A stretch of DNA of 49,123 bases, from contig NZ_NHSK01000161.1 in the NCBI RefSeq assembly GCF_016653355.1, positions 2,307 through 51,429 of the forward strand, in the 5' to 3' direction. The translations under genes and the position numbers were made by a program. Position 1 is the stretch's first letter. Each line of letters starts with the position of its first letter. Of this stretch, positions 18,997 through 36,153 are shown in pieces. The notes under the pieces were generated by a model. That model was given only the letters and a program-made list of their open reading frames with translations, was not told the DNA's origin and did not search any database. Source of the stretch: Rhodoplanes elegans (GTDB lineage: Bacteria > Pseudomonadota > Alphaproteobacteria > Rhizobiales > Xanthobacteraceae).

Positions 18997-19016
18997 CGGC
19001 CCGGCCTGTCGGATGA

Positions 19017-20498: not shown

Positions 20499-21113
20499 TC
20501 ATCCCTGATCGCGCGGCAGGCTCCACGGATGCACGGCCGCCCGTTCCGCCGCGAAAGCGCGGATCGCCGCGGCGTGGCTCAGCGTCAGGTCGATGTCGTC
20601 CCAGCCGTTCAACAGCTTGGTCCGCCACACCTCGTCGACGGCGAATGGGATCGTCTCGCCGCCGGCCCGGATGGTTCGCGTCTCTAGATCGACCGAGACG
20701 CGCCGGCCGGCCGCGGCGTGATCGAGCAGGCGCTCCGCCGCGTCGTCGTCGACGCGCGCCGGCAGCAGCCCGTTGTTGACCGCGTTGGAGGCGAAGATGT
20801 CGCCGAAGCTCGGCGCGACGACGCAGCGGAAGCCGAAGTCGACCAGCGCATAGACGGCCGCCTCGCGCGAAGACCCGCTGCCGAAGTTGCGCCGCGCGAC
20901 CAGCACGCGCGCGCCCGCGAAAGCGGGATCGTCGAGCGTGAGGCCGCGTGCCGATCCGTCGGTCGCGAAGCGCAGGTCGTGCAGCAGGAAGCCGCCGTAG
21001 CCGGCGGCGCGCGGCTGCTTCATGAAGCGCGCCGGGATGAGCTGGTCGGTGTCGACATTGGCCAGCGGCAGCGGGCAGGCGATCGCCTCGTCGAGGCCTT
21101 TGAACGGCTGCAT
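20499..21113 (-). CDS. LeuD-like small subunit of an aconitase-family hydratase
   Basis: A 204-residue swivel-domain protein of the LeuD group. It shows the N-terminal NVDTDQLIPARFMK motif, RNFGSGSSREAAVYAL (active-site Ser loop), and FGDIFASNAVNNGLLP. It pairs with the large subunit encoded directly upstream, sharing one base at the TGATG junction. In leucine synthesis the pair interconverts isopropylmalates. Here it ends a catabolic operon with a lyase and hydantoinase genes, so hydration of an alkylmaleate or related diacid is more likely. No leuA or leuB is in sight. Last gene of the region C operon. Confidence 0.9.
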   Translation of the reverse strand: MQPFKGLDEAIACPLPLANVDTDQLIPARFMKQPRAAGYGGFLLHDLRFATDGSARGLTLDDPAFAGARVLVARRNFGSGSSREAAVYALVDFGFRCVVAPSFGDIFASNAVNNGLLPARVDDDAAERLLDHAAAGRRVSVDLETRTIRAGGETIPFAVDEVWRTKLLNGWDDIDLTLSHAAAIRAFAAERAAVHPWSLPRDQG

Positions 21114-22558
21114 CACAGTCTCCCGGCGAGCAGCGGACGGACATCGGCGAGATGCCCGGTGACGGCCGCGGCCGCCGCCATGGCGGGCGACATCAGGTGG
21201 GTGCGGGCGCCGAGTCCCTGGCGGTTCTTGAAGTTGCGGTTGGTGGTCGAGGCGCAGCGCTCGCCCGAGGGCACCAGATCGCCGTTCATGCCGACGCACA
21301 TCGAGCAGCCCGAATCGGCCCATTCGAGACCGGCGGCGACAAAAATGCGGTCGAGGCCCTCCTGCTCGGCCTGCTGCTTCACCAGCGACGAGCCCGGCGA
21401 GACGAGCCCCGGCACCCGCGCGGTGCGGCCGGCCAGCACGGCCGCCGCGGCGCGCAGATCCTCGATCCGCGAATTGGTGCAGGAGCCGATGAACACCCGG
21501 TCGATCGCGACCTCGGCCAGCGGCCGGCCCGGCACCAGCGCCATGTAGGCGAGCGCATCGCGGACATGGGCGGCGCGCGCCGGATCGGGAATGCGGTCCG
21601 GGTCCGGGACCGTCGCGTCGATCGGTAGCGCGTCCTGCGGGCTGGTGCCCCAGGTGACGGTCGGCACGATCTCGTCGCCCCGGAACGTGAACTCCTTCTC
21701 GAACACCGCGTCGGGGTCGCTGGCGAGCGCTAGCCAGTCGGCGGCGGCGCGCTCGAACGCCTCGCCCTCCGGCGCGAACGGCCGTCCGCGTAGAAACTCG
21801 ATCGTGGTCGCATCCGGGGCCACCATGCCGCAGCGGCCGCCGCCCTCGATCGAGAGGTTGCACAGCGTCAGCCGCCCCTCCATCGAGAGCCCCGTGACGG
21901 CGGACCCAGCATACTCGATCGCGTGGCCCTGCGCGCCGTCGGCGCCGAGCTTGGCGATCCAGGTGAGCGCCATGTCCTTGGCGCCGACGCCCGGCGTGAG
22001 CGCCCCGTCGATCACGATGCGCATGCGCTTCGGCTTGCGCTGCCAGAGCGTCTGGGTGATCAGCACATGCGCCACCTCCGACGCGCCGATGCCGAAGGCG
22101 AGCGTGCCGAAGGCGCCGTGCGTCGAGGTGTGGCTGTCGCCGCAGACCATCACGAGGCCGGGCAGCGTGAGCCCCTGCTCCGGCCCGACCACGTGAACGA
22201 TGCCCTGGCGCGGATCGCCGAGGCCGAACAGCTTTATACCGTGACGCGCCGTGTTGGCGACCAGGCGATCGACCATCACCTTGACGCTCTCGTCGGCGAT
22301 CCGCGGGCGTCCGCGCGTCGGCACGTAGTGATCCGCCACCCCGAAGGTGAGATCGGGCCGCGCCACCGTCGCGTCGCGGGCGGCGAGCTGGGCGAAGGCG
22401 TGGTGCGAGCCCTCGTGCAGGACATGGCGGTCGACGAACAGCAGCGTCTGGCCGTCCGCGCGGGTGACGACCGCGTGGGCGTCCCACAGCTTGTCGAGCA
22501 GGGTTTTCGGCGCGCCGCGCGCGATCGCGCTGGTGATGGCGTCAGCCGGCATGGGCAT
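21113..22558 (-). CDS. LeuC-like large subunit of an aconitase-family hydratase
   Basis: A 481-residue [4Fe-4S] hydro-lyase subunit of LeuC type. Cluster ligands are visible in GSCTNSR and in SGCSMCVGMN; VVGPEQGLTLPGLVMVCGDSHTSTHGAFG and the RTHLMSPAMAAAAAV end are typical. Start: two ATGs (22558, 22552) follow a GGGGAG site; I take the first, which overlaps the FAD gene by 17 bases. With the LeuD-like protein it should hydrate or isomerise a small dicarboxylate. Because the operon also encodes an isocitrate-lyase-family lyase, a dimethylmaleate-hydratase-like or alkylmalate function is attractive, but LeuC sequence alone cannot show it. Confidence 0.9.
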   Translation of the reverse strand: MPMPADAITSAIARGAPKTLLDKLWDAHAVVTRADGQTLLFVDRHVLHEGSHHAFAQLAARDATVARPDLTFGVADHYVPTRGRPRIADESVKVMVDRLVANTARHGIKLFGLGDPRQGIVHVVGPEQGLTLPGLVMVCGDSHTSTHGAFGTLAFGIGASEVAHVLITQTLWQRKPKRMRIVIDGALTPGVGAKDMALTWIAKLGADGAQGHAIEYAGSAVTGLSMEGRLTLCNLSIEGGGRCGMVAPDATTIEFLRGRPFAPEGEAFERAAADWLALASDPDAVFEKEFTFRGDEIVPTVTWGTSPQDALPIDATVPDPDRIPDPARAAHVRDALAYMALVPGRPLAEVAIDRVFIGSCTNSRIEDLRAAAAVLAGRTARVPGLVSPGSSLVKQQAEQEGLDRIFVAAGLEWADSGCSMCVGMNGDLVPSGERCASTTNRNFKNRQGLGARTHLMSPAMAAAAAVTGHLADVRPLLAGRL

Positions 22559-23975
22559 CGTCTCCCCGAGGCACGGGCTTCGCCTTGACGGCGCAGGCCG
22601 CGACCAGCCCGGCGGTGCGGCCGAGGCCGACCGCCGACAACAGGCCATTGCCCGAGAGATAGCCACTCGCCTGCGATCCCGAAACACCGCAAGCGGCGCC
22701 GCCGACGGCGAAGAGATTCGGCAAAGCCGTGCCGTCGTCGCGGAGCACCCTTGCATCGGTGCCGACGACGAGCCCACCCTGCGTATGCAGGAGTGCGCCC
22801 GTCACCTTCACGGCCCGGTACGGTGGCACCAACGGCGGGGTCCGCGAGAAGTCGCGGCCGAACGCGTCGGTCGCCTTCGCGCATTGCGCCGCCTCGACGG
22901 CGCACAGCGTCGCCGTCAGCGTCGCGACCGGCAGGCCGAGCCGCTCGGCGAGCTCCGGGATCGACGCCGCCGTCACCACGGCCCCGGCCGCCTCGGCCTG
23001 GCGAAAGTCCTCGAAGCCGCGCGCCACCGCGGCGATGCGCTCGTCGAAGATCGTGAAGGCGATGCCGTCCGGCTGCGCCACCACGGCGGCGGCCTGCTCG
23101 GAGTATCCGAGCGTCTCGTCGGCGAAGCGGCGGCCGTCGCGGTTCACCTGCACGCCGCCCTGGGTGATCGTCGCCCAGGTGATCTGGATGCCGTGCGGAT
23201 GCGCAATGGCGCCGTGCCCCTGATGGCCGGAGAGATGCCGGGTCGCGGCGCCGAGCGCCTCGCCCCAGACGAGCGCATCGCCCTGGTTGCCTTCGTGGCC
23301 AAAGAACAGCGCGTCGGCGAGCTCGGGAATGTGGCGCGCCACCAGCGCCGGGTTGCCGCCGTAGCCGCTGCAGGCCAGCACCAGCGCGCCGCAACCGACC
23401 TCGTCGCGGCTGTCGTCCGGCCGCACGACGCCGATCCCGCGCACGCGCCCGTCCGGATCGGCGTAGAGCGTGTCGACCCGCGCGTCCGTCATGATCATCA
23501 CGCCGGTCTCCTCGGCGGCCGCGCTCAGCCGCTCGATCAGCTCGACGCCGGATCGAGTCGGAAGTCCGTGCATCCGGTACGTCGAGTGGCCTGGATACAG
23601 AAACTCCGTGATCACGTCGAACGGCAGGCCATGCGCGTCGGCGAGCCATTCGAGCGTCGGGCCGATCGTCTCGGCGAGATGCGTCACCACGCACGCGTCC
23701 GGCTCGCGATGCGCCTTGGCGAGGATGTCGGCGGCGAACAGCTCGGCCGTGTCGACGATGCCGGCCGCGGCCTGCCAGCGCGTCGCCGGCGCCGGGATCA
23801 GGCCAGCCGACATGGCCGTCGAGCCGCGCGGCACGGGATCGCGCTCCAGCACCAGCACGTCGACATCGGCGGCGCGCGCCGCGAGCGCCGCGACGAGCCC
23901 GGCGGCGCCAGCGCCGATCACCACCACGGGCATCGACACCTCGAAGTGTCGGCCCGCTGCCGGGACCACGGTCAT
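22542..23975 (-). CDS. FAD-dependent dehydrogenase/reductase (fumarate reductase flavoprotein-like)
   Basis: A 477-residue flavoprotein of the FAD_binding_2 group, which includes ketosteroid dehydrogenase, tricarballylate dehydrogenase and fumarate or urocanate reductase. The FAD loop VVIGAGAAGLVAA is at about 18-30, ERDPVPRGSTAMSAG follows, a second FAD contact is ACSGYGGNP, and the C-terminal TQGGLVVGTDARVL and QASGYLSGNGLLSAVGLGR segments close the site. No signal peptide or haem motif is present, so it is probably cytoplasmic. It should introduce or reduce a C=C bond next to a carboxyl or carbonyl. The ATG at 23975 overlaps the isochorismatase-like gene by 4 bases. Confidence 0.88.
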   Translation of the reverse strand: MTVVPAAGRHFEVSMPVVVIGAGAAGLVAALAARAADVDVLVLERDPVPRGSTAMSAGLIPAPATRWQAAAGIVDTAELFAADILAKAHREPDACVVTHLAETIGPTLEWLADAHGLPFDVITEFLYPGHSTYRMHGLPTRSGVELIERLSAAAEETGVMIMTDARVDTLYADPDGRVRGIGVVRPDDSRDEVGCGALVLACSGYGGNPALVARHIPELADALFFGHEGNQGDALVWGEALGAATRHLSGHQGHGAIAHPHGIQITWATITQGGVQVNRDGRRFADETLGYSEQAAAVVAQPDGIAFTIFDERIAAVARGFEDFRQAEAAGAVVTAASIPELAERLGLPVATLTATLCAVEAAQCAKATDAFGRDFSRTPPLVPPYRAVKVTGALLHTQGGLVVGTDARVLRDDGTALPNLFAVGGAACGVSGSQASGYLSGNGLLSAVGLGRTAGLVAACAVKAKPVPRGDDAHAG

Positions 23976-24595
23976 GCACCAGCCTCGGCGCGAATCTCGG
24001 CCAGGACCTCGGCGACGGTCGTGATGCGCGCGACCGGGCGAAGCGCCTCGATCGCGGTCGCATGCACGGCCGGCGTGAATGCGGCGCAGCCGTCCGTCAG
24101 CACCGTGATCTCGAACTCGCGCACATGCGCGTCGCGCACCGTCGACGCGACACCGCCATTGGTGACGATGCCGCAAGCGATCAGCCGCTCGATGCCGGTC
24201 TTGCGCAGCACCCATTCGAGCCGCGTCATGTAGAAGGCCGAGTAGGCGATCTTCTCCACCGAGACGTCGGCCGGCTGCAGCGCGTCGACGAGCTGGTGGC
24301 CCCAGGCGCCGGGTAGGAAGTCGCCCTTCTTCAGGAACGGGCGGAGTTGCTTGAGATGCGGCGAGATCATCGGCTCGCCGCCGCGGCCCGGCACCAGCGT
24401 GAACTGGGTCGAGACGACCAGCCCACCTGCGGCGCGCAGTGCGGCGGCGAGCGGCTTGATTCGCGCCGGCAATGCAGCGATCTCCGGCACGCTCTGGCCG
24501 GCGCGGCCATAGGCGCCGTCGGGGTGCAGGAAGTCGTTCTGCAGATCGACGATCAGCAGCGCGGTCTTGTCGGTCGGAACGGCGGCGATGCTCAC
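23972..24595 (-). CDS. Isochorismatase-fold hydrolase lacking the catalytic Cys
   Basis: A 207-residue protein of the isochorismatase/cysteine-hydrolase family. The catalytic Asp is D17 (LIVDLQNDF) and the Lys is K115 (VEKIAYSAF). The third residue, Cys in the amidases (T-N-x-C-V), is Gly148 here, in IVTNGGVASTVRDA. True isochorismatases also lack this Cys, and I recall other proteins with TNGGVASTVRDA, so it may be a subgroup with a different reaction. The start is a GTG at 24595, whose GTGA overlaps the stop of the hydantoinase A gene; no ATG is available. In context an amide or N-carbamoyl hydrolase was expected, but the residue pattern argues against it. Confidence 0.88.
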   Translation of the reverse strand: MSIAAVPTDKTALLIVDLQNDFLHPDGAYGRAGQSVPEIAALPARIKPLAAALRAAGGLVVSTQFTLVPGRGGEPMISPHLKQLRPFLKKGDFLPGAWGHQLVDALQPADVSVEKIAYSAFYMTRLEWVLRKTGIERLIACGIVTNGGVASTVRDAHVREFEITVLTDGCAAFTPAVHATAIEALRPVARITTVAEVLAEIRAEAGA

Positions 24596-26697
24596 GACAC
24601 AGCCTCCTGGCTCGCCTGCGGCGCCTCCTTGCGCTCGACGATCACGTTGCCGAGCGCATCGACGCGGGTGACGAGATCGGGATCGATCACGGTGGTGGCG
24701 TCCGGTTGCTCCAGCACGGCCGGTCCCGGAACCACGGCGCCGACCGGCAGGTCGAGCCGCGCATAGATCGCGGTGTCGTGCCAGCCGCCGTCGAACCACA
24801 CCGGCCGGCTGCCCTGGCGGGCGCGCTCCATCGAAGCCTCGGGTCCGGGCGCCAGCGCGGCGAGGTCGAAGCGCGGCCGCCGGCCGATCGCCGCGGTGCG
24901 CAGATTGACGATCTTCACCGGCACGCTGGGCAGCAGGCGGCTGAACGACGCCTGATAGGCACGGTCGAACGCACTCCTGATCAGCTCGGCCGAAACCCCG
25001 GTGGTGTCGCCGGCGCCGCCGGCCGTGATGGTCACGGGCAGCGGCACGGCGATCGTGTGGGTCTGGCCGACATAATGCATGTCGAGCTCGAAGACGAGAT
25101 CGATGCGCTCCATCGCGAGGCCGGCGTCCTCGACCACGGCGCGTGCCGCCGCGGCTTCGCTCACCATGCGGCGGTCGAGCGCCGCGGCGTCGAGACCAGC
25201 GAGCGTGAGGTTCACGGTCTGCACCTGGTCGTGGCGGATGTCGGCGATGACGCAGCCGAGCGCCGAGGTGACGCCGGGATAGCGCGGCACCAGCGCGCCC
25301 TTGAGCCCGACATCCTTGATCATCGCGCCGACATGCAGGGCGCCGCCGCCGCCGAACGGCACCGCGACGAACCTGCCCGGATCGTGGCCGCGCTCGATCG
25401 ACACCAGCCGGATGGCGCCCGCCATCTTGCCGTTGGCGACCCGCACGATCGCCTCGGCGGCTGCATGCGCGTCGAGCCCGAGCGGCGCGCCGACGTCGCG
25501 CAGGATCGCGGCCCTCGCCGCCTCGACGTCCAGCGAGGCGAGCTTGCCGCCGATCGGACGCGCCGCGTTGATGCGGCCGAGCACGACGTTAGCGTCGGTG
25601 AGCGTCGGCCGATCGCCGCCCTGGCCGTAGCAGACCGGGCCCGGCCGCGAGCCGGCGCTGTGTGGGCCGACCTGCAGGAGACCACCCGCGTCGACATGGG
25701 CGATCGAGCCGCCGCCGGCGCCGATCGTGGTGATCTCGATCATCGGCGTGCGCACGACGAGACCGAAGTCGATCGTCGTCTGCGGGGCGAGCGCGGTCTC
25801 GCCGCCGACCACCAGCGACACGTCGAACGAGGTGCCGCCGAGATCACCCGTGATCACGTCCGGGAAGCCGGCCTCGCGCGCGATCGCGGCGGCGGCGATG
25901 ACGCCGGCCGCCGGGCCCGACAGCGCGGTGCGCACCGGCAGGCGGCGCGCCGTCGCGGTCGACATGATGCCGCCGTTCGACTGCACGATGTGGAAGCGCC
26001 CGGCGAAGCCGCCCGCCTGCAGGGCGCCGTCGAGCTTCTCCAGATAGCTGCCGACGACCGGCTGCAGATAGGCATTGAGGGCGGTCGTCGAGGTGCGCTC
26101 GAACTCGCGGATCTCGGGCAGGATCTGGCTCGAGCAGGCGATGTTGGCGTTCGGCCACGCGGCGGTCGCGGCGGCGAGCGCCGCCTGCTCGTTCGCCGGA
26201 TTGGCGTAGGCGTTGATGAACACGATGGCGAGCGCCTGCGCGCCCTTGGCGGCGAGCGTCCGCGCCGCCGCCGCGACCTCGTCCGGATCGATCGCCGTCA
26301 CCACGCTGCCGTCGGCATGGGTGCGCTCGGCGACCTCTATCCTCAGATCACGATCGACCACCGGCTCGAAGTCGCCCCACAAGCCCCAGGTGTGGCGGCG
26401 GTCGCGCCGGCGCATCTCCAGCACGTCGCGGAAGCCGCGCGACGTGATCAGGCCGATGCGGGCGCCCTTGCGCTCGAGCAGCGCGTTGGTGCCGACCGTG
26501 GTGCCGTGGACGATCGACGAAAGCTCCGACACCGGCCCGAACGTCGTGAGGCCGCCCATGAAGCCGACGGCTTCGTCACCGCGATTCGACGGCACTTTCG
26601 CCGTGCGGAAGCGGCGCTCCGCCTCGTCGTAGAAGAACAGATCCGTGAAGGTGCCGCCCACGTCGACGCCGACGGTGCGGCCCGGTGCCGTGCTCAC
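24592..26697 (-). CDS. Hydantoinase/oxoprolinase family subunit A (HyuA-like)
   Basis: A 701-residue protein with the actin-like ATPase fold of the HyuA group: DVGGTFTDLFFYD at about 10-22, HGTTVGTNALLERKGARIGLITSRGF, a central GPAAGVIAAA, and DLGGTSFDVSLV. With HyuB it forms ATP-dependent enzymes that open cyclic amides (hydantoins, 5-oxoproline, caprolactam) or carboxylate ketones (acetone, acetophenone). The length matches stand-alone HyuA. Start at 26697 (ATGA overlap with hyuB). The presence of a lyase and a LeuCD-like hydratase favours an imide or lactam that yields a dicarboxylate, but this is inference. Confidence 0.93.
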   Translation of the reverse strand: MSTAPGRTVGVDVGGTFTDLFFYDEAERRFRTAKVPSNRGDEAVGFMGGLTTFGPVSELSSIVHGTTVGTNALLERKGARIGLITSRGFRDVLEMRRRDRRHTWGLWGDFEPVVDRDLRIEVAERTHADGSVVTAIDPDEVAAAARTLAAKGAQALAIVFINAYANPANEQAALAAATAAWPNANIACSSQILPEIREFERTSTTALNAYLQPVVGSYLEKLDGALQAGGFAGRFHIVQSNGGIMSTATARRLPVRTALSGPAAGVIAAAAIAREAGFPDVITGDLGGTSFDVSLVVGGETALAPQTTIDFGLVVRTPMIEITTIGAGGGSIAHVDAGGLLQVGPHSAGSRPGPVCYGQGGDRPTLTDANVVLGRINAARPIGGKLASLDVEAARAAILRDVGAPLGLDAHAAAEAIVRVANGKMAGAIRLVSIERGHDPGRFVAVPFGGGGALHVGAMIKDVGLKGALVPRYPGVTSALGCVIADIRHDQVQTVNLTLAGLDAAALDRRMVSEAAAARAVVEDAGLAMERIDLVFELDMHYVGQTHTIAVPLPVTITAGGAGDTTGVSAELIRSAFDRAYQASFSRLLPSVPVKIVNLRTAAIGRRPRFDLAALAPGPEASMERARQGSRPVWFDGGWHDTAIYARLDLPVGAVVPGPAVLEQPDATTVIDPDLVTRVDALGNVIVERKEAPQASQEAVS

Positions 26698-28448
26698 GCT
26701 GCTTCTCCTTCACGCTTCTCGCCGACACGCGTCTCACCGACCGTCGCGCCATCGGCGACCGGCCGCCCGGCCGCATCGACATGCACGCCGTAGCGGCTCA
26801 AGGCCGCGTCCGGGCTGACCAGCCCGAAGCGCACGTCGCGCGCGACCCGCTCCGGATCGCGGGCGACCGGATCGCCCCATCCGCCGCCGCCGGGCGTCTC
26901 CAGGCGCACCCGCCGGCCCGCCTTGATTCTCACGTCGGTGACCTTGGACACCATCGGCGGAGACCGTTCGCCGTCGTCGGTCTGCCAGTGGAACAAATTC
27001 AACGCCGCCGGATCACCGCCGGCGACCCCGAACGGCGCGACCTTGCCGCGCTCGCCGAGCAGCGACACCTCCGCATCGGACAGGACCTCGATCTCGTAGA
27101 CGGCGCCGACGCCACCGCGATGCTCGCCCGCGCCGGCACTGTCGGGCCGCAAGGCCCACTGCGTGAACTTGATCGGATAAGCGGCCTCCAGAATCTCCAG
27201 CGGCGGAATCGTCGCCGTGGAGATCGGATTGTTGGCGTGGTTGAGGCCGTCGCTCTGCGGATTGCCGCCGAGCCCGCCGCCGAAGAACGAGAACATCACC
27301 CAGCGGCTGCCGTCGGCGCGGTGCCCCGCGATGGAGAGCGCGTTGATGGTGCCGAACGGGCCGGCCGTGGCGCGCGCCGGGTCGGCCTTGGCGAGCGCGC
27401 CGAACACCACGCCGATCAGGCGGAGGATCGTCTCGGTATAGCCAGCGACCGGCTTCGGCGCCTTGGCGCCGAGCAGCGTCGTGTCCGGAATCACGAAGTC
27501 GATGGGCCGCAGGCAGCCGGCATTGGCCGGCACCTCGACGAACACGTGCTTCAACGCGACGTAACAGGCCGCGACCGCGGTGGCGCGCGAGATGTTGATC
27601 GGCCCCTGCGGCGGGGCCGAGGAGCGCGAGAAGTCGAGCACCATGCCGCCGTCGCGGATCGTCAGATCCAATCCAATGGTGAGCTTCTCGTCGGTGATCC
27701 CGTCGTTGTCGAGAAAGTCCTCGAAGCTGTAGGTGCCATCCGGCAGCGAGCGGAGCGCGGCGCGCATCAGCGCCTCGGCGCGGTCCGAGAAGGCGTCGAA
27801 GGCGGCCGAGACAGTCGCGTCGCCATACTCGTCGAGCAGCGCATGAAAACGCCGCTCGCCGAGATCGAGAGCGTTGAGCTGACCGTTGAGGTCGCCCCAG
27901 TTGGATAGCGGCACCCGCGTGTTGGCGGCCAGGATGTCAAGAATGTCCTGATTCATCGTACCGGCTGCGATCAACTTCACGGGCGGAAAGCGCACGCCCT
28001 CCTGGAAGCTCTCGGTCGCCTTCGGGTTGTAGCCACCCGGCACGTTGCCGCCGATGTCGAGCCAGTGGCCGACCGAGGCGAGCCAGCAGAACAGCGTTCC
28101 GTTCCGGAACACAGGGCGCACCAGCCTGAAGTCGTTGAGATGCGTGCCGCCGTCGTACGGATCGTTGAACAGGAAGGTGTCGCCGGGCGAAAGACCGCCG
28201 CGCGTCTTCACCAAGTCGATCACCGACCTCACGGCGAACGCCATGGCGCCGACGAAGATCGGCAGGCCCTTGGTGCCCTGCACCAGCGTGTCGCCGGTCT
28301 CGGCGTGGTAGAGGCCGTGGCAGGCGTCGCGCGCCTCGGCGATGATCGGGTTGAAGGCCGAGCGGTAGAGTGTCGCGTCCATCTCGTCGGCGATCTGCTC
28401 CAGCCGGCCGCCCAGCACGGCGAGCGTGACGGGATCGATGGCGGTCAC
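26694..28448 (-). CDS. Hydantoinase/oxoprolinase family subunit B (HyuB-like)
   Basis: A 584-residue protein of the HyuB group: the N-terminal DPVTLAVLGGRLEQIADEMD segment, SAFNPIIAEARDACHGLY, FLFNDPYDGGTHLNDF (likely metal and substrate site), and near the C-terminus LETPGGGGWGDPVARDPE. It is the partner of the HyuA protein encoded directly downstream with a 4-base overlap. The two families cannot be assigned a substrate from sequence, since hydantoinases, oxoprolinases, lactamases and ketone carboxylases share it. The last 25 residues are Gly/Glu/Val-rich and less conserved. Confidence 0.93.
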   Translation of the reverse strand: MTAIDPVTLAVLGGRLEQIADEMDATLYRSAFNPIIAEARDACHGLYHAETGDTLVQGTKGLPIFVGAMAFAVRSVIDLVKTRGGLSPGDTFLFNDPYDGGTHLNDFRLVRPVFRNGTLFCWLASVGHWLDIGGNVPGGYNPKATESFQEGVRFPPVKLIAAGTMNQDILDILAANTRVPLSNWGDLNGQLNALDLGERRFHALLDEYGDATVSAAFDAFSDRAEALMRAALRSLPDGTYSFEDFLDNDGITDEKLTIGLDLTIRDGGMVLDFSRSSAPPQGPINISRATAVAACYVALKHVFVEVPANAGCLRPIDFVIPDTTLLGAKAPKPVAGYTETILRLIGVVFGALAKADPARATAGPFGTINALSIAGHRADGSRWVMFSFFGGGLGGNPQSDGLNHANNPISTATIPPLEILEAAYPIKFTQWALRPDSAGAGEHRGGVGAVYEIEVLSDAEVSLLGERGKVAPFGVAGGDPAALNLFHWQTDDGERSPPMVSKVTDVRIKAGRRVRLETPGGGGWGDPVARDPERVARDVRFGLVSPDAALSRYGVHVDAAGRPVADGATVGETRVGEKREGEAA

Positions 28449-29344
28449 GCGGCAGTCTCCTCGTCGGTGGCCGAATGATCACGGCCGAAGTGATCGTAGC
28501 CGGCGCCGAGCGCCAACATCTCGGGCGTGCCGATCAGCGTGTTGAGCGCGGAAAAGTCGAACATGCGGTCGGCGAACGCGGCATTGCTGCCCGTGGCGGC
28601 GAGCGAGGCGTAATAGGCCTGGGCGGTGCGGGCGAGCGCCCGCACGATGCCGCCCGGAAAGATGACGATGCGGAAGCCGAGCGCGCCCAGCTCGGCGGCC
28701 GGCATCAGCGGCGTGTCGCCGCCCTCGACCATGTTGACGAGCAGCGGCCGCGTGCCGGCCAGCGCCGCGACGAGGCGGTCGAGCTGATCACGCGAGCGCG
28801 GCGCCTCGACGAACAGCACGTCGGCGCCCGCCTCGGCATAGAGGCGCGCCCGCTCCACGGCACGCTCGAAACCCTCCACGGCGACGGCGTCGGTGCGGGC
28901 GACGATCAGGGTCTCGTCGCTCGCGCGGGCATCGACGGCGGCCTTCACCTTGCCGGCCATCTCGGCGGCCGGGATCAGCGTCTTGTCGCGCAGATGGCCG
29001 CAGCGCTTGGGGAACGACTGGTCCTCGAGTTGGATCGCGGTCGCGCCGGCGCGCTCGAACAGCCGCACGGTGCGCTGCACGTTGAGCGCGTTGCCATAGC
29101 CGTTGTCGGCATCGACGATCAGCGCCGTCGGCACCCGGTCGCGCACCAAGGTGATCACCTCGGCGACCTCGGACATCGTCACGAGCCCGATGTCGGGGCA
29201 TCCGAGCCGCGTATAGGCGATGGCGGCGCCGGAGAGATAGAGCGCCTCGAAACCCGCCGCTGCTGCGAGGGAGGCCGTGAGCGCGTCGTAGATGCCGGGC
29301 GCGACGATCGTCCCGCCGCTGTCGAGCCGATGCTTCAGGGTCAT
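28445..29344 (-). CDS. PEP-mutase/isocitrate-lyase family lyase
   Basis: A 299-residue (beta/alpha)8 enzyme. Mg-binding acids are D78/D80 in VDADNGYGN and E107-D108 in QLEDQSFPK; the general-acid Cys is C115 in the KRCGH motif, which marks true C-C lyases such as 2-methylisocitrate lyase and 2,3-dimethylmalate lyase rather than PEP mutase. It should cleave a 2-hydroxy diacid to pyruvate or glyoxylate plus an acid. It is the first enzyme gene after the transporter genes, and its 4-base overlap with hyuB ties it to the degradation block. With the LeuCD-like hydratase it mirrors the dimethylmaleate hydratase-lyase pair of nicotinate fermentation. Confidence 0.88.
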   Translation of the reverse strand: MTLKHRLDSGGTIVAPGIYDALTASLAAAAGFEALYLSGAAIAYTRLGCPDIGLVTMSEVAEVITLVRDRVPTALIVDADNGYGNALNVQRTVRLFERAGATAIQLEDQSFPKRCGHLRDKTLIPAAEMAGKVKAAVDARASDETLIVARTDAVAVEGFERAVERARLYAEAGADVLFVEAPRSRDQLDRLVAALAGTRPLLVNMVEGGDTPLMPAAELGALGFRIVIFPGGIVRALARTAQAYYASLAATGSNAAFADRMFDFSALNTLIGTPEMLALGAGYDHFGRDHSATDEETAA

Positions 29345-29379
29345 GGCTTCTTTCCTGTCTTTTCGGCCCCAGCGGCTCC

Positions 29380-29486
29380 TGCGTTCCCTCCCCTCTTGTG
29401 GAGGAGGGACAGGGAGGGAGGTGAGCCACGAACGCTGAATGCGAGGCTCACCCCCCTCTCCACCTCTCCCCCACAAGGGGGGAGAG
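29380..29486. repeat. REP-like palindromes inside region C operon
   Basis: Inverted repeats GTGAGCC/GGCTCAC (29421-29427 with 29445-29451) and CTCTCCCCC/GGGGGAGAG (29464-29472 with 29478-29486) fill the only long gap (190 bp) in the operon. They could act as mRNA-stabilising or attenuating stems between the transporter and the enzyme genes. They resemble the CTCTCCCC palindromes at 30-203. Confidence 0.6.
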
Positions 29487-29534
29487 AGCAGGCTGCGGAT
29501 CGCGGTTGCATCCTCATCCACACGGCCCGGCTCC

Positions 29535-30236
29535 TCACAATCCCAGATACACGCGCCGCAGATCCGGGTCGGCGGCGACGTCCCGGGCCGTGCCGGACAG
29601 CGCCACGACGCCGTTCTCGATTACGTAGGCGCGCGCCGCGATCTCCAGCGACTGCACGACGTTCTGCTCGACCAGCATGATGGCGAGGCCCTCCTGGTTG
29701 AGGCGGCGGATCAGCGCGAACATCTCCTCGACCAGCAGGGGCGAGAGGCCGAGCGACGGCTCGTCGAGAATCAGCAGTCGCGGCTCGCCCATCAGCCCCC
29801 GGCCGATCGCGAGCATCTGCTGCTCGCCGCCCGACAGCGTTCCGGCGAGCTGCGAGGTGCGCTCGCGCAGGCGCGGAAACGTTGTGAACACCCGCTTGAG
29901 ATTGGCGTCGCGGTTCGCCCGCCCGCGGCGGTAGCAGCCGAGCTCGAGATTCTCCCGCACGCTCATCGTGGGGAAGATCTTTCGACCCTCCGGGACGTGG
30001 ATCAGGCCCGCCGCGACGATCGTCTTGTCGGGGAGGCGATCGATGCGGGTGCCGTCGAATCGTATCGTGCCGCCGCGGGCCGGCAGCACGCCGGACAGGA
30101 CGTTGTTGAGGGTCGTCTTGCCGACCCCGTTGGCGCCGAGCACCGCGACGATCTCGCCGGCGTCGACCCGCAGGTCGATGCCGCGCAGCACCGTGGTGCC
30201 GCCGTAGCCGGCCTCCAGCCCCTCAACCTCGAGCAT
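29535..30236 (-). CDS. Branched-chain-type ABC transporter ATPase (LivF-like)
   Basis: A 233-residue ATPase of the LivF type: Walker A GANGVGKTT, signature LSGGEQQMLAIGRGLM, Walker B LLILDEPSLGLSP, and the LivF-typical VPEGRKIFPTMSVRENLELG. It works with LivG (30223) on the LivH/LivM permease. The start at 30236 overlaps the livG stop by 14 bases. It is the last transporter gene before the 190-bp repeat-filled gap. Confidence 0.93.
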   Translation of the reverse strand: MLEVEGLEAGYGGTTVLRGIDLRVDAGEIVAVLGANGVGKTTLNNVLSGVLPARGGTIRFDGTRIDRLPDKTIVAAGLIHVPEGRKIFPTMSVRENLELGCYRRGRANRDANLKRVFTTFPRLRERTSQLAGTLSGGEQQMLAIGRGLMGEPRLLILDEPSLGLSPLLVEEMFALIRRLNQEGLAIMLVEQNVVQSLEIAARAYVIENGVVALSGTARDVAADPDLRRVYLGL

Positions 30237-30972
30237 GGGCGCCTCCGGCGGCGATGCGGGCGGCGGCGCCGTGGCCCAGATAGGCCTCGATCACCTGCGG
30301 ATCGGCGCAGACGTGCTGCGGCGTGCCGTGGGCGACGTGACGGCCTTGCGCGATCACGTACACGGTCTCGCAGAGGTTCATCACGGCCTGCATGATGTGC
30401 TCGATCATGAAGATGGTGACGCCGTCGTCGCGGATCGCGCGCAGCACCGGGATCATGTCGCGCACCTCGGACGGGTTGAGGCCGGCCAAGACCTCGTCGA
30501 GCAGCAAAAGGCGCGGCTCGGTCGCGAGCGCACGCGCGACTTCCAGCCGTTTCCGACCGGCGACGGTCAGGGCCGCGGCCGGCTTGTCGAGCTCGTGAGA
30601 GAGCCCGACCCGCTCGGCGACAGCGGCCGCGCGGTCCATCGCGTCGGCGCGACGCGCGTGGCGCAGATAGGCGCCGACCGCGATGTTCTCGTGCACCGAG
30701 AGGCCGGCGAACGGCTGAGTGATCTGGAACGTGCGGGCGATGCCGCGCCGCGCGCGTCTGTAGGGCGCCTCGTCGGTCAGGTCGACGCCGTCGAGCAGCA
30801 CGCGCCCGCCGGTCGGATGCAGGAAGCCGGCCAGCATGGCGAAGACCGTGGTCTTGCCGGCGCCGTTCGGCCCGATCAGGCCGGTCAGCGAGCCCTCCGC
30901 GACATGGAGCGAGACATCGTCGACGGCGACGAGGCCGGAGAATTTCTTCGTGAGGCCTTCGGCGACCAGCAT
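30223..30972 (-). CDS. Branched-chain-type ABC transporter ATPase (LivG-like)
   Basis: A 249-residue ATPase of the LivG type: GPNGAGKTT, RRGIARTFQITQPFAGLSVHENIAVG, a degenerate signature LTVAGRKRLEVARALA in place of LSGGQ (usual for many LivG), and LLLLDEVLAGLNP. The ATG at 30972 lies one base after the stop of livM. The C-terminal tail after EAYLGHG is short and Ala-rich. Confidence 0.92.
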   Translation of the reverse strand: MLVAEGLTKKFSGLVAVDDVSLHVAEGSLTGLIGPNGAGKTTVFAMLAGFLHPTGGRVLLDGVDLTDEAPYRRARRGIARTFQITQPFAGLSVHENIAVGAYLRHARRADAMDRAAAVAERVGLSHELDKPAAALTVAGRKRLEVARALATEPRLLLLDEVLAGLNPSEVRDMIPVLRAIRDDGVTIFMIEHIMQAVMNLCETVYVIAQGRHVAHGTPQHVCADPQVIEAYLGHGAAARIAAGGAHARG

Positions 30973-30973
30973 G

Positions 30974-31963
30974 TCAGGCCTCCACCGCAGGCTTGCGTCC
31001 GCGCCCGGTGGTGCGCAGGCGACCCGCGAGCCGCGACAGGCCGCCCATGAGCCCACCGGGCAGGAAGGCGATGACCAGAATCAGCACCACGCCGAAGACG
31101 ACGAGGTCGATCCCCGGCACGCTGCCGGCGATGCCCTTGGTCGCCTCGCCGAGCCCGTGCAGCGCCAGCGCGCCGATCAGCGGTCCGAAGACCGTGCCGG
31201 CGCCGCCGACCAGCGGCGCCAGCAGCGCCTCGACCGAGATCCACGGGCCGTAGGCGACGGTGGCGTCGACGAACAGGAAATACTGCGCGTAGAGGCAGCC
31301 GGCGAGCGCCGTGAGCGCCGCCGACAGCGCGATGGCGCCGAGCTTCACCCGCATCGGATCAACGCCGAGCGCCTCGGCGGCCTGCTCGTTCTCGCGCACC
31401 GCGATCAGATGGGCGCCGAACCGCGAGCGCGTCAGCCAGGTCGAGATCACCAGGCCGATTCCGACGAAGCCGAGCACCAGCATGCAGGTGATGCGGCGAT
31501 CGGCGAACTGCAGGGTCGCGACGCCGGGGTCGAGCCTGATCAGAAGACCGGCAGCGCCGCCGGTGAAGCCGACCGCATTGGCGACGACCCGGAACACCTC
31601 GGCGAAGGCGAGCGTCACCAGGGCGAAGTAGGAGCCGCGCAGCCCGGACCGGAACGACAGGAACCCGATGAACAGCCCGACCGCGACACCGGCGGCGACG
31701 CCGCAGAGGAGTCCGACCCAGGCGTTGACGCCGAGCTGCACCTGCAGGATCGCGGTCGCGTAGGCGCCGGTGCCGAAGAAGGCCGCGTGGCCGAACGAGT
31801 ACTGGCCGCCGAAGCCACCGAGGATGTTCCAGCCCTGCGCGGCGAGCGCCACGATCAGCATGTAGACGAGGAAGTTCAGCGTCGCGTTGGAGACACCGAG
31901 CCACGGCACCACGGCGAACACCGCGACGACGAGGAGCGGGCGCAGGAGATCGGTCGCGGTCAT
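30974..31963 (-). CDS. Branched-chain-type ABC transporter permease (LivM-like)
   Basis: A 329-residue permease with about nine membrane segments and the LivM marks GGFGGQYSFGHAAFFGTGAYA and the loop AVRENEQAAEALGVDPMRVKL that contacts the ATPases. The ATG at 31963 overlaps livH by 4 bases (ATGA). Upstream in the same frame lies only a shadow of livH. Confidence 0.93.
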   Translation of the reverse strand: MTATDLLRPLLVVAVFAVVPWLGVSNATLNFLVYMLIVALAAQGWNILGGFGGQYSFGHAAFFGTGAYATAILQVQLGVNAWVGLLCGVAAGVAVGLFIGFLSFRSGLRGSYFALVTLAFAEVFRVVANAVGFTGGAAGLLIRLDPGVATLQFADRRITCMLVLGFVGIGLVISTWLTRSRFGAHLIAVRENEQAAEALGVDPMRVKLGAIALSAALTALAGCLYAQYFLFVDATVAYGPWISVEALLAPLVGGAGTVFGPLIGALALHGLGEATKGIAGSVPGIDLVVFGVVLILVIAFLPGGLMGGLSRLAGRLRTTGRGRKPAVEA

Positions 31964-32832
31964 GCGCGCGCTCCAAACAGGCCGGTGGGTCGCACGAGCA
32001 GGACCACGATGAAAATGAGGAAGATGCCGAGCTGACCGAGGCTGTCGCCGAGATAGAGGCTCGACAGGCTCTCGACCGCGCCGATCAGCAGGCCGCCGAT
32101 CAGCGCGCCGACCACCGAGCCCATGCCGCCCAGCACGACGATCGTGAAGGCGACCAGCACGAAGGCACCGCCGATGCGCGGATTGACGTAGAAGGTGGGC
32201 ATCAAGAGGCTCGCCGCGACCGCGAGGCAGACACAGCCGATGCCGAACGTCACGGCGTAGACGTGATCGACGTCGATGCCGACAAGCCGCGCCCCGGTCT
32301 TCTCCCGCGCCACGGCGCGGATCGCCTTGCCGATGTCGGTGCGGTTGAGCACGAGCCACAGCAGCGCCGTCATCACCAATGTCACGACGAAGCCGACGAG
32401 CCGCGGTTGCGACAGCAGGAGCGGGCCGATCGAAACGACCTCGAGCGCGTAGTCGCTCGCCACCGTGCGGGTGTCGGACTTGAAGCCGGCGAGCAGCGCG
32501 TTCTCCAGAACGATGGCGAGCCCGAGCGTCACCAGAAGAATGTTGCCGTCGTCGTGCCGGCTCGCCGGGCCGATGACGAGCCGCTGCATGCCGTAGCCGA
32601 GGCCGAACATCAGCGGGCCGACGATCAGCACGGCCGCGTAGGGGTCGATGCCGAGCCACGCCCACGCCGCCCACACCATGAACATGGCGCAGGTGAGCAG
32701 CGCGCCGTGCGCGAAGTTGATGATGTGCAGCACGCCGTAGACCAGCGTGAGGCCGAGCGCGACGAGGGCATAGACACCGCCGGTCAGCAGACCGTTCAGC
32801 ACGGCCTCGAGCACGATCTGGGGTGAGTACAT
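31960..32832 (-). CDS. Branched-chain-type ABC transporter permease (LivH-like)
   Basis: A 290-residue permease with about eight membrane segments: LLTGGVYALVALGLTLVYGVLHIINFAHG at the start, AVAREKTGARLVGIDVDHV in the coupling loop, and VLGGMGSVVGALIGGLLIG near the end. It follows the binding-protein gene after 92 bp, a gap that holds two strong hairpins. The start at 32832 gives the normal LivH length. Confidence 0.93.
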   Translation of the reverse strand: MYSPQIVLEAVLNGLLTGGVYALVALGLTLVYGVLHIINFAHGALLTCAMFMVWAAWAWLGIDPYAAVLIVGPLMFGLGYGMQRLVIGPASRHDDGNILLVTLGLAIVLENALLAGFKSDTRTVASDYALEVVSIGPLLLSQPRLVGFVVTLVMTALLWLVLNRTDIGKAIRAVAREKTGARLVGIDVDHVYAVTFGIGCVCLAVAASLLMPTFYVNPRIGGAFVLVAFTIVVLGGMGSVVGALIGGLLIGAVESLSSLYLGDSLGQLGIFLIFIVVLLVRPTGLFGARA

Positions 32833-32861
32833 GGACGGTCCGGCGGCGCGCGGGGGTGGGG

Positions 32862-32918
32862 CGGCGGAGCGGAGCTCCGCCGTCGTCGGGACGTGAGCGG
32901 CGGCAGGGCGGCCGCCGC
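32862..32918 (-). promoter_or_regulatory. Two GC-rich hairpins between binding-protein and permease genes
   Basis: CGGCGGAG/CTCCGCCG (32862-32869 with 32875-32882, 5-nt loop) and GCGGCGGC/GCCGCCGC (32897-32904 with 32911-32918, 6-nt loop). There is no T-run, so they are not full terminators. Stems placed after a binding-protein gene commonly protect its mRNA and lower permease expression; that is the likely role here. Confidence 0.45.
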
Positions 32919-32924
32919 GCAGGA

Positions 32925-34157
32925 TCAGGCCTTCAGCGGGAAGACCGGCTTCACCTGGGCGAAGGCGTCCGGATAGATCACCTTCACGTCGTTGTCCTGG
33001 ATCTGGGTGTTGAGCGGCAGCGCGCTGACGTTCTGGCCCTCGACGAACTTCGAGCGTCCGTACGGCATCACCCCGCTGCCGAAGTCGCGGCTCGACAGCG
33101 CCGCGATCAGCTTGTCGGAGGCGACGCCACCGGCCACCTCGATCGCCTCGGCCATCAGCATCACGGCCGAGTAGTTGAGCGGCACGTTGTAGACATAGGA
33201 CTTTCCGGCCGCCTCGGTGCGGGCCCGGATGTCGGCCGACTTCGGGTTCTTCGGGTCGTGCCAGTGGTTGCAGTCGATCACGCCGTCGGCGGCCTGCGGG
33301 AACTCCTTGACGAAGCGCAGGCTGGAGGCGCCGCCGCCGAAGATCGCATAGATCGCCTTCGGCCGAATGCGCTGCTGCTGCATGGTGCGAGCGAGCAGCA
33401 CGAACTCGCCGTAGTAGTTCGACGGGATCACGAGGTCGGGCTTGAGCGAGCGGATGCGCAGCGCGATGTTCGACATGTCGCGCGCCGGCGTCGGGTGCGA
33501 GATCGTCTCCAGCACCTCGAAGCCGAGCTTGGGCAGCTCGGAGCCGAGCAGCTTGGCGAGGCCGGAGCCGAACAGCCCGTCCTCGTGGACGATCACCACG
33601 GTCTTCACCGGCTTGCCGGCGGCGTCGTTCAAGGTGACGAGATTCTTCAGCGCGACCTCGGTCGCCATGCTGAAGCTCGGCGCCATGCGGAACGTGTTCT
33701 TGAGGCCGCGCTTGGTGATCGCGTCGGCGACACCGACGTCGACCAGATAAGGAAGGTCGTAGCGGGCTGCCGCCTGTGTCGCGGTCATGCACAGGCCACT
33801 GCCGAAGCCGCCGACGATCGCCGCCACCTTCTCGCCCTGCAGGCGCTCGACCTCCTGGGCCGCGGCCTCGGGGTTCGAGCGGTTGTCGGCGAACACCATC
33901 TCGATCTTGGCGCCGCCCAGCGCCTTCAGGCCGCCGGCCGCGTTGATGTCGGCGATGGCGAGCTCGGCACCGAGCCGGCCGAGGTCGCCCGCCTCGGCGA
34001 GCGCGCCCGTCACCGGCTGGATGATGCCGAGCTTCACGGCCGGCGCCTGCGCCCGCAGCACGGTCGGGGCCGCGACCAGGGCCGCGCCGGCGGCACCGGC
34101 CTTCAGCACTGCGCGGCGCGAGAGCGCGGCGGCGAGCCGGCGATCGGACGATGTCAT
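32925..34157 (-). CDS. Branched-chain-type ABC transporter substrate-binding protein
   Basis: A 410-residue periplasmic-binding protein of the LivJ/amide-urea type. It starts with a Tat-like signal (SRRAVLKAGAAGAALVAAP, probable cut after the LRAQA near residue 38). The mature part reads VKLGIIQPVTGALAEAGDLGRLGAELAIADINAAGG, then VAAIVGGFGSG and VHEDGLFGSG. Ligand unknown; it is expected to be the compound degraded by the operon. The ATG at 34157 overlaps the GntR stop by 4 bases, so regulator and transporter are cotranscribed. Confidence 0.93.
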   Translation of the reverse strand: MTSSDRRLAAALSRRAVLKAGAAGAALVAAPTVLRAQAPAVKLGIIQPVTGALAEAGDLGRLGAELAIADINAAGGLKALGGAKIEMVFADNRSNPEAAAQEVERLQGEKVAAIVGGFGSGLCMTATQAAARYDLPYLVDVGVADAITKRGLKNTFRMAPSFSMATEVALKNLVTLNDAAGKPVKTVVIVHEDGLFGSGLAKLLGSELPKLGFEVLETISHPTPARDMSNIALRIRSLKPDLVIPSNYYGEFVLLARTMQQQRIRPKAIYAIFGGGASSLRFVKEFPQAADGVIDCNHWHDPKNPKSADIRARTEAAGKSYVYNVPLNYSAVMLMAEAIEVAGGVASDKLIAALSSRDFGSGVMPYGRSKFVEGQNVSALPLNTQIQDNDVKVIYPDAFAQVKPVFPLKA

Positions 34158-34993
34158 GGACGGGTCCCTTTCTTGCTGGCGGTCCGCTTCGGACGGGGGG
34201 CGCTGGACTCGGAAGACGGGCCGCTCGTGCACACCACGGTCGGGGTCCACCGACGGGTGCCGTCGGCTCCGGTGCGGACGAGGTCCATCTGAAAGGCGTA
34301 ACGGTCGGGCCGGTAGAGCGCGTGCAGGTGCTCGACGCCACGGCCGGACGGCTCGTAGACGACGCGGGTGAGCGAAATCACGGGGTCGCCGGGCGCGAGG
34401 TCGAGCGCCTCCGCCGTCTCGGGACCGACCAGACTGGCGCTGATCGACTGCGTCGCGCGCTCGGCGACGACGCCGGAGCGCTCCATCAGCTCGAGCAGCG
34501 GAATGGTCGCGAGGTCGCGCTCCGAATAGGTGAGGCCGATGCGCTCCGGCACATGCGTCGTCAGATAGGAGAACGGCTGCCCGTCGATCAGCCGCACCCG
34601 CACCGAGCGCTGCACGCGCTCGCCGCGGGCGAGGCCGAGCGGCTCGGCGATCGAGGCCGGCGGCACCACATAGGCGAAGGACAGGAGCTTCACCGCGGTG
34701 GTGCGGCCCATCTCGATCAGGTTGGAGAGCACGTTCGAGAAGTCGGCGACGATCGGCCGCGACGCCGGCACGTCCTCGACGAAGGTGCCGGAGCCGACGC
34801 GCCGCCGCACCAGCCCTTCGTCGGCGAGCAGATCGAGGGCGCGCCGCACGGTGACACGCGAGACGCCGTGCTCCTGCGCCAGCGCCGGCTCGCTCGGCAG
34901 CCGCCCGCCCGGCGCCACCGCACCGGTGACGATGCGGTCGCGCAGCAGCAGATAGAGCCGGCGTGTCTTGAGAAGCTCGACGGCGGCCGTCAA
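34154..34993 (-). CDS. GntR-family transcriptional regulator (HutC/UTRA type), TTG start
   Basis: A 279-residue repressor with an N-terminal winged helix (GGRLPSEPALAQEHGVSRVTVRRALDLL, about 29-56) and a UTRA effector domain (about 90-245). No ATG lies near the conserved start. A TTG at 34993 follows a GGGAG site by a normal spacing, so I choose it; the frame is open much further upstream but without similarity. It heads the region C operon and should repress it until the substrate or an intermediate binds. The palindrome at 35072-35099 is a candidate site. Confidence 0.88.
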   Translation of the reverse strand: MTAAVELLKTRRLYLLLRDRIVTGAVAPGGRLPSEPALAQEHGVSRVTVRRALDLLADEGLVRRRVGSGTFVEDVPASRPIVADFSNVLSNLIEMGRTTAVKLLSFAYVVPPASIAEPLGLARGERVQRSVRVRLIDGQPFSYLTTHVPERIGLTYSERDLATIPLLELMERSGVVAERATQSISASLVGPETAEALDLAPGDPVISLTRVVYEPSGRGVEHLHALYRPDRYAFQMDLVRTGADGTRRWTPTVVCTSGPSSESSAPRPKRTASKKGTRP

Positions 34994-35071: not shown

Positions 35072-35099
35072 CAGACAGCTTCTGTCAACGCGCTGTCTG
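35072..35099. promoter_or_regulatory. Candidate GntR operator upstream of region C operon
   Basis: CAGACAGC (35072-35079) and GCTGTCTG (35092-35099) are perfect 8-base arms with a 12-base spacer, and GACAG-CTT-CTGTC is nested in the left half. It lies 79 bases before the TTG of the gntR gene, in the AT-richer part of the intergenic region (35000-35315). HutC-type GntR proteins bind such palindromes, so autoregulation is likely. Confidence 0.5.
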
Positions 35100-35619: not shown

Positions 35620-36153
35620 TCAGCCCTCGTCGCGGTCGCCCATCATGGCGGCGATCTCGCGCAGCGGGGCGAACAGTCCGGCATAGACGTCGGCGCCGAG
35701 GCGTTCGACGATGCGCTGCTCGTGATCGGCCGATATGCGGTGCAGCTTTCGCATCAGCAACCGGCCGTCCGCCGTGAGCGAGAGCGCATGGGCGCGGCGG
35801 TCGCGCGCAGTCGCTTCGCGGCGCACGAGGCCGCGCGCCTCGAGCGCGTCGATCATCGCCACCAGATTGGTCTTCTTGATGCCGAGCGCATCGGCGATGC
35901 GGGTCTGGCTCAGACCCGCGTTGCGCTCGATCACGGTGAGGATCGAGTACTGGGCCGGGCGGATGTCGAGCGCCTCGAAGCGCGAGAAGAAGTCCTGGAA
36001 GACGGCGAGCTGGGCGCGACGCAGGACGTAGCCGACCCGCTGGTCGAGCGGACCGAAATCGATGGACGTCTTCGCCGGGGAATCGGCGGGTCGCGGCTCG
36101 GCGCCGTCGCGCCCGACCGGTTTCGTCGTTCTCGCGCGCAGAGAAGAGTCCAT
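35620..36153 (-). CDS. MarR-family transcriptional regulator (CouR/FerR/PhdR-like role)
   Basis: A 177-residue MarR protein: VGYVLRRAQLAVFQDFFSRFEALDIRPAQYSIL, recognition region LSQTRIADALGIKKTNLVAMIDALE, and wing VRREATARDRRAHALSLTADGR. The N-terminal 30 residues are unordered. It is divergent from the region D operon. MarR repressors (CouR, FerR, PhdR) that release DNA on binding hydroxycinnamoyl-CoA control such clusters in several bacteria, so the same is likely here. The ATG at 36153 gives normal family length; one 14 codons upstream is possible. Confidence 0.9.
   Translation of the reverse strand: MDSSLRARTTKPVGRDGAEPRPADSPAKTSIDFGPLDQRVGYVLRRAQLAVFQDFFSRFEALDIRPAQYSILTVIERNAGLSQTRIADALGIKKTNLVAMIDALEARGLVRREATARDRRAHALSLTADGRLLMRKLHRISADHEQRIVERLGADVYAGLFAPLREIAAMMGDRDEG

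Follow-up and report, generated by a model that had tools for sequence, protein, structure and literature searches.

A thirteen-gene operon of Rhodoplanes elegans that may serve the breakdown of a cyclic amide, possibly a substituted imide

The subject of this analysis is a set of thirteen minus-strand genes at positions 20499-34993 of a 49,123-base stretch of Rhodoplanes elegans DNA (GC content 70.6%; hereafter the window). The initial annotation, made from the sequence, described them as one-strand genes that overlap or nearly touch and named a family for each, and in both respects it agrees with the open reading frame coordinates, the translations and Pfam. All thirteen genes are present and tightly packed: nine of the 12 junctions overlap, one leaves a gap of 1 nucleotide (nt), and gaps of 92 nt and 190 nt separate the binding protein from LivH and LivF from the lyase, respectively. 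Nine of the thirteen proteins were scanned against Pfam, whereas four importer genes were assigned by translation and annotated orthologs. The first gene encodes a GntR-family regulator with a UTRA domain (34154..34993; UTRA 3.9e-33, GntR 6.5e-21), for which no NCBIfam profile scored above its cut-off among the 25 matches listed. It is followed by an importer of the Leu/Ile/Val (LIV) type, consisting of a solute-binding protein (SBP; 32925..34157; Peripla_BP_6 6e-49; PDB matches are Leu/Ile/Val-binding proteins), the LivH-like (31960..32832) and LivM-like (30974..31963) permeases and the LivG-like (30223..30972) and LivF-like (29535..30236) ATPases. Orthologs of LivH adjoin HyuAB and are annotated as a branched-chain permease at locus L153, where LivM, LivG and LivF, which likewise have orthologs, also have annotated counterparts. 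The enzymes come next: a lyase of the isocitrate lyase (ICL)/phosphoenolpyruvate (PEP) mutase family with a KRCGH motif (28445..29344; PEP_mutase 3.7e-46); HyuB, the metal subunit of a putative ATP-dependent cyclic-amide hydrolase (26694..28448; Hydantoinase_B 1.5e-170), and HyuA, its ATP subunit (24592..26697; Hydantoinase_A 2.7e-86, with N, middle and C domains); an isochorismatase-fold protein (Iso; 23972..24595; Isochorismatase 1.4e-42) with the motif TNGGV and no catalytic Cys; an FAD-binding dehydrogenase of flavocytochrome-c-type fold, with no haem domain and Tyr for the catalytic Arg (22542..23975; FAD_binding_2 4.8e-46); and the LeuC-like large subunit (21113..22558; Aconitase 5.2e-152) and LeuD-like small subunit (20499..21113; Aconitase_C 6.5e-20, with NCBIfam PRK01641 above cut-off) of a putative hydratase of the aconitase family.

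Upstream of the regulator, 81-93 nt from its start, lies a perfect inverted repeat, GACAG-AAG-CTGTC (35074..35086, minus strand), which is the sole ACAG-N1-6-CTGT site in the window. The repeat fits autoregulation by GntR and might be its operator; it was also scored as a terminator-like hairpin. The upstream motif scan gave 52 matches, of which 17 are listed, and eight of these are artefacts of stretches cut at the locus edge (offsets beyond -250). Nine are left including the window, so that, among the matches listed, eight other loci (seven genomes) have the same core at a distance of about 37-99 nt ahead of the GntR gene. In most loci scanned the ACAG/CTGT core is missing upstream of GntR.

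The view that these genes form a dedicated operon is borne out by synteny: the locus is confirmed to be conserved, beyond a chance grouping. An Iso ortholog occurs in 31 of 198 genomes of the family, our own included (62-100% identity, at least 260 bits; the next match has 95 bits). Counted at 70% query coverage or more, and with four of the 30 stretches shorter than 15 kb, the 30 other Iso loci hold HyuA in 28, HyuB in 27, the lyase and LivF in 25 each, and SBP, LivH, LivM and LivG in 24 each, followed by LeuC (19), LeuD (18), GntR (18) and FAD (10). A wider genome scan found relatives at E <= 1e-3 in at least 558 stretches, and the 80 that were kept include Microvirga, Methylobacterium, Azospirillum, Rhizobium, Bradyrhizobium, Bosea and roseomonads. 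With tblastn matches at E <= 1e-10 and any identity, these 80 loci contain HyuA in 79, HyuB in 77, the lyase in 73, each importer gene in 69-74, FAD in 61 and LeuCD in 33, the 10-kb flank excluding GntR and an upstream LeuCD in many. Some loci belong to the same strain (e.g. L039 and L070), so the 116 Iso orthologs represent fewer independent genomes. Plasmids of Sulfitobacter, Variovorax and Paraburkholderia carry more distant forms of the operon.

Not only the genes but also their principal sites are intact. HyuA has the ATP motifs DxGGTxTD (residues 12-19), DxGGT (285-289) and GxxPGP (349-354), with D285, G349 and P352 present in 112/112 readable of 114 orthologs and D12 in 99/99 readable; altogether five motif positions are invariant wherever they could be read. 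The metal site of HyuB, D41/H103/D106/H128, is present in 109/109 readable of 111 orthologs. By motif this tetrad aligns with D41/H99/D102/H124 of CapB, and caprolactamase requires the ATP motifs as well as this Asp-His-Asp-His metal site (PMC8453981). In having both subunits, the ATP motifs and the metal tetrad, the pair is like caprolactamase (CapAB), N-methylhydantoinase and 5-oxoprolinase. However, it scores only 503 and 326 against the NCBIfam CapA and CapB cut-offs of 1000 and 1000, which rules out caprolactamase, and it is set among a hydratase and a lyase. No extra carboxylase subunit was recognised among the operon proteins in the translations or by Pfam, and the hydrolase substitutions described below argue for HyuAB acting as a hydrolase rather than a carboxylase.

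The supposed pairing of a LeuCD-like hydratase with an ICL-family lyase also finds support. All three iron-sulphur cysteines of LeuC are kept in 56/56 readable of 57 orthologs. The KRCGH motif of the lyase, already noted in the initial annotation, occupies residues 113-117, and K[RK]CGH is found in 103/103 orthologs of more than 55% identity. The best PDB match of the lyase is petal death protein (3.8e-57), 2,3-dimethylmalate lyase also being matched (2.5e-50); against the NCBIfam profile for the methylisocitrate lyase PrpB it is below threshold (274 bits, cut-off 354). Could the operon then belong to a pathway that already has a name, such as leucine synthesis, or the use of 5-oxoproline or caprolactam, or nicotinate fermentation? 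LeuC and LeuD do score above the NCBIfam leuC and leuD cut-offs, and the closest functional pair, dimethylmaleate hydratase (DmdAB) with 2,3-dimethylmalate lyase, is part of the nicotinate fermentation of Eubacterium barkeri, which likewise joins a LeuCD-type hydratase to an ICL-family lyase. Nonetheless, we regard a named pathway as very improbable. The operon LeuCD is a second copy: elsewhere the genome has another leuC (54% identity), beside genes read as ffh, rpsP, rimM and trmD, as well as another leuD, which makes leucine synthesis an unlikely role. In contrast to the E. barkeri route, whose upstream enzymes are not among the operon proteins (no B12 mutase or enamidase is found among the nine Pfam-scanned proteins), ring opening here would fall to HyuAB; the caprolactamase scores given above also speak against a named pathway. 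A practical caution follows for annotation, since a probably catabolic LeuCD passes the leuC and leuD cut-offs.

For the FAD enzyme, the proposed role in flavin oxidation was not borne out as stated. The gene is present, and the protein aligns with flavocytochromes c, but it has Tyr at both Arg positions (Y291 and Y439; 73/73 readable of 75 orthologs). In flavocytochrome c and fumarate reductase these Arg are the catalytic and substrate-binding residues, and Tyr at such positions is typical of ketosteroid dehydrogenases. Judged by these residues, its active site differs from those of succinate-type dehydrogenases and of fumarate reductase; the structure model, with a mean pLDDT of 68.7, is too poor for use. 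An FAD ortholog of at least 449 bits occurs in 21 of the 198 family genomes, 17 of which have the Iso gene while the other four (G183, G049, G115 and G131) have the amidohydrolase described below, and this co-occurrence with Iso or amidohydrolase is far from random (hypergeometric 5e-19, 36/198, if the genomes are independent). The count leaves out G045, G053 and G079 (317-332 bits, 43-44% identity), of which only G079 has an Iso ortholog. In G003, G012 and G056 the FAD gene lies apart from the HyuAB locus.

Perhaps the most informative feature of the operon is that its ring-opening block is exchangeable. In another genus (g3), 7 of 20 genomes have an amidohydrolase after the lyase in place of HyuB-HyuA-Iso (at 4074-5618 in L157). 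It is nearest to allantoinase, D-hydantoinase and dihydroorotase, below the NCBIfam cut-offs. These swapped loci retain the lyase (7/7), the importer upstream of it (6/7), LeuC or LeuD (4/7: L157, L173, L174 and L177) and FAD (1/7: L157), several of their contigs ending early. The HyuA paralogs of the seven genomes are distant (33-43% identity, as opposed to 81-100% in three controls), and an Iso ortholog was found in none of them (five covered in one search, four in another). The amidohydrolase search covered this genus and one order sample; the latter gave 0 of 397 but listed no genome of the carrier genus, and this empty result shows nothing. A class-level search anchored on the lyase found it in 46 of 385 genomes, our own included, and 45 loci were read. 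HyuA of more than 50% identity is seen in 20 of these, and in five the lyase has a hydrolase resembling the PuuE allantoinase no more than 3 kb away (in L214 on the opposite strand). The PuuE-type hydrolases are nearest to PuuE/allantoinase in NCBIfam and PDB, again below the NCBIfam cut-offs, and their loci carry a LeuC of a distant subfamily (29-36% identity), a LeuD and, in three of the five, an isochorismatase-fold protein that contains the Cys. In the six genomes with PuuE or the Cys protein there is no Iso ortholog (matches of at most 72 bits) and no HyuB ortholog (31-44% identity). Finally, a Rhodococcus plasmid holds within about 15 kb HyuA (35%), HyuB (28%), an amidase, an amidohydrolase (59.6%), an FAD protein (42%), PrpD, a CoA-transferase, a CoA-ester lyase and MaoC. 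In other words, three unrelated cyclic-amide hydrolase families are found near one hydratase-lyase theme, which argues for cyclic-amide opening combined with alkylmalate-type cleavage and backs the former as it had been proposed from the window. Loci L179, L222 and L223, with a racemase and second PrpD, and L192 were also considered as substitutions and rejected, since an Iso ortholog is present elsewhere in those genomes.

Iso, the protein that travels with HyuAB, needs a closer look. The isochorismatase fold named in the initial annotation is there, and so are the catalytic Asp and Lys, but the nucleophilic Cys of the TN-x-C-V amidase motif is absent: in 116/116 orthologs that position is Gly, with D17 and K115 kept. 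An ordinary cysteine amidase is thereby excluded. RutB and the biuret and triuret hydrolases share the fold and the Asp/Lys positions, but not this substitution. Gly for Cys with Asp and Lys retained is the pattern of the isochorismatases EntB and PhzD, and true isochorismatases hydrolyse an enol ether. It is therefore tempting to consider an unsaturated lactam (pyrrolinone or tetrahydropyridone) as the substrate, which HyuAB would open and whose enamine the Cys-less Iso would hydrolyse. The invariance of the residue pattern fits such a scheme, and relatives of HyuAB open lactams (PMC8453981). However, the PuuE variant comes with an isochorismatase-fold protein that has its Cys. Moreover, we know of no activity on unactivated lactams for the metal hydrolases that replace HyuAB, and on balance a lactam seems unlikely. 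A somewhat better case, although still a doubtful one, can be made for a cyclic ureide, namely a hydantoin or dihydropyrimidine that bears an acidic side chain. Its conversion into a ureido acid would fall to HyuAB or the amidohydrolase, Iso would act on the ureido group, and LeuCD and the lyase would follow. The replacing enzymes point in this direction, being nearest to allantoinase, hydantoinase and PuuE (NCBIfam, PDB; all below NCBIfam cut-offs), as do the Iso model (mean pLDDT 79), whose nearest Foldseek matches are triuret, biuret and ureidoacrylate hydrolases, and Asp/Glu/hydantoin racemase-family genes in L100. Yet Iso lacks the Cys that ureido hydrolases have, and the ureido acid must lose urea or carbamate and be deaminated before LeuCD, steps for which no gene was recognised in the operon.

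Variation is not confined to the hydrolases. The importer, taken to be dedicated in the initial annotation, does comprise five conserved genes but is not fixed: Sulfitobacter has a TRAP system in place of the LIV-type importer, and TTT-type binding proteins occur near the operon in some other loci. PDB searches with the binding protein gave no specific ligand. Variovorax and Paraburkholderia have in place of LeuC a version that is much less similar (35-36% identity). LeuCD of Tistrella is preceded by an acyl-CoA dehydrogenase and by a CoA-transferase whose closest type is succinate-glutarate, and 30.6 kb of this locus gave no match to the lyase or FAD; the acyl-CoA dehydrogenases of the PuuE loci L215 and L220 share 71% identity with the Tistrella enzyme. 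We count it in favour of the imide scheme proposed below that the back end seems to be swapped for equivalents, that is, CoA enzymes in Tistrella and the CoA-transferase, CoA-ester lyase and MaoC of Rhodococcus. An MmgE/PrpD gene, which also speaks for that scheme, is found in 50 of 110 loci and stands between LivF and the lyase in 49. In the window this place is taken by the 190-nt gap (29345-29534), which has the look of an intergenic element; the few stretches of the own genome that were compared showed no further copy of it. In a comparable pathway an MmgE/PrpD family member is reported to isomerise methylsuccinate, and the itaconate/methylsuccinate degradation cluster described there has the same alkyl-C4-diacid logic, an MmgE/PrpD partner and a parallel in the CoA-based operon variants, but the window has a CoA-free hydratase with the lyase and a ring-opening front end (PMC12290011).

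Taken together, the operon quite probably converts a cyclic amide into a C4-diacid skeleton that is then cleaved in the manner of malate. Going a step further, its genes might be induced for the catabolism of a substituted cyclic imide, with an alkylsuccinimide or alkylmaleimide as the most likely type. We favour this tentatively, because the parts suffice without a gap for the imide of a substituted C4-diacid, which makes imide catabolism the simplest reading. The individual reactions, their order and the substrate we infer as follows. The LIV-type importer would take up the imide, and GntR would repress the operon until it binds its ligand. HyuAB would open the imide ring at the expense of ATP, and the Cys-less Iso might help to free the nitrogen of the half-amide, possibly by using the adjacent carboxylate as nucleophile or by hydrolysing an enamide. 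If the substrate is saturated, the FAD enzyme may introduce a C=C bond next to the carbonyl. The LeuCD-like hydratase would hydrate the resulting alkylmaleate, and the lyase would cleave the alkylmalate to a 2-oxoacid and a carboxylate. In the known bacterial cyclic imide pathway an imidase and a half-amidase similarly lead to a dicarboxylate in two hydrolytic steps; in the operon, HyuAB and the Cys-less Iso would replace the metal imidase and the amidase, and the route would end in an alkylmalate.

Several observations weigh against an imide, or against the scheme as a whole. Hydantoins and allantoin are just as well known as substrates of all three hydrolase families, which leaves room for a ureide. 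The invariant loss of the Cys nucleophile agrees poorly with a half-amidase. LIV and TRAP binding proteins usually bind acids or amino acids, so uptake of an otherwise neutral imide would call for an additional carboxylate on it. No ring-opening hydrolase is visible at 20 of the 45 class-level lyase loci, which show the Cys protein alone (one, L187), racemases with a second PrpD (three), FAD with or without LeuCD (three: L192, L197 and L206) or none of these (13); thus the lyase alone is no pathway marker. The Rhodococcus HyuA and HyuB are of low identity. At L068 the Iso gene occurs without the other operon genes, and the lyase is absent from the otherwise intact L043 (just a 43% relative upstream) and L062 among the 30 Iso loci, and from 7 of the 80 loci of the wider scan, some of which are truncated where a contig ends. 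Finally, no FAD ortholog of at least 449 bits is found in 14 of the 31 Iso genomes, so the FAD step is not obligatory.

A more specific version of the imide proposal, which we consider decidedly unlikely, is that the operon consumes maleimides from the breakdown of chlorophyll, haem and bilins, such as hematinic acid and methyl-ethyl-maleimide. Ring opening would give a 2,3-dialkylmaleate, to be hydrated and cleaved by the lyase. Several carrier genera are often plant-associated. One study found hematinic acid in leaves but could detect no maleimides in them (PMC7318184). If the proposal were true, it would fill a gap in bacterial metabolism, namely how tetrapyrrole debris reaches the central pathways, and would give the Cys-less Iso a new enzyme activity.

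Whatever the substrate, the operon brings known enzyme families together in a new way, and one of them has lost its nucleophile. The initial annotation knew of no named pathway with this exact set, and in the open-licence literature, as judged by titles and the beginnings of abstracts and with subscription papers outside the scope, no description of the whole gene set was found. A presumably catabolic locus is recognised across numerous genera of alphaproteobacteria and in some betaproteobacteria as well, an actinobacterium having a related set, and the substitution pattern narrows an open annotation to a short list of testable substrates. Iso also exposes a family annotated as 'cysteine hydrolase' in which no ortholog read retains the catalytic Cys.

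Some genes next to the operon deserve mention. Downstream on the same strand lie a binding-protein-like gene with a weak SsuA-family match (SBP2; 19017-20006, minus strand) and a regulator of the IclR type by reading of its translation (18064-18996, minus strand). Both were considered as operon members (18064-20006) and rejected, SBP2 having no matches in the 30 and 80 loci and an IclR-like gene being found in 2 of 80. Upstream, a gene read as a MarR-like regulator (35620-36153, minus strand) has no match in the 30 and 80 loci. At L060, L050, L055 and L058 the operon is adjoined by an aromatic-hydroxylase-like FAD monooxygenase, a TTT-type binding protein and a protein that distantly resembles EutA/arylmalonate decarboxylase or looks similar to it; further lyase copies are present in L060 and L050, in L060 together with LeuCD, and these neighbours may point to a related pathway that ends in the same way. 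Two tandem genes of the Asp/Glu/hydantoin racemase family stand in or beside the operon at L100 (10641-12103), L179, L222 and L223, the first of the two in L100 being 78-79% identical to that of the other three loci. At L149 (10669-11235) the operon is accompanied by a protein whose scan showed tautomerase and SnoaL-like domains, and similar short genes follow Iso at L090, L094, L139 and L147. Lyase homologs of 56-58% identity at L196, L199 and L211 are located beside genes read as tautomerase, UbiX-like and class II aldolase-like, and apparently belong to another pathway.

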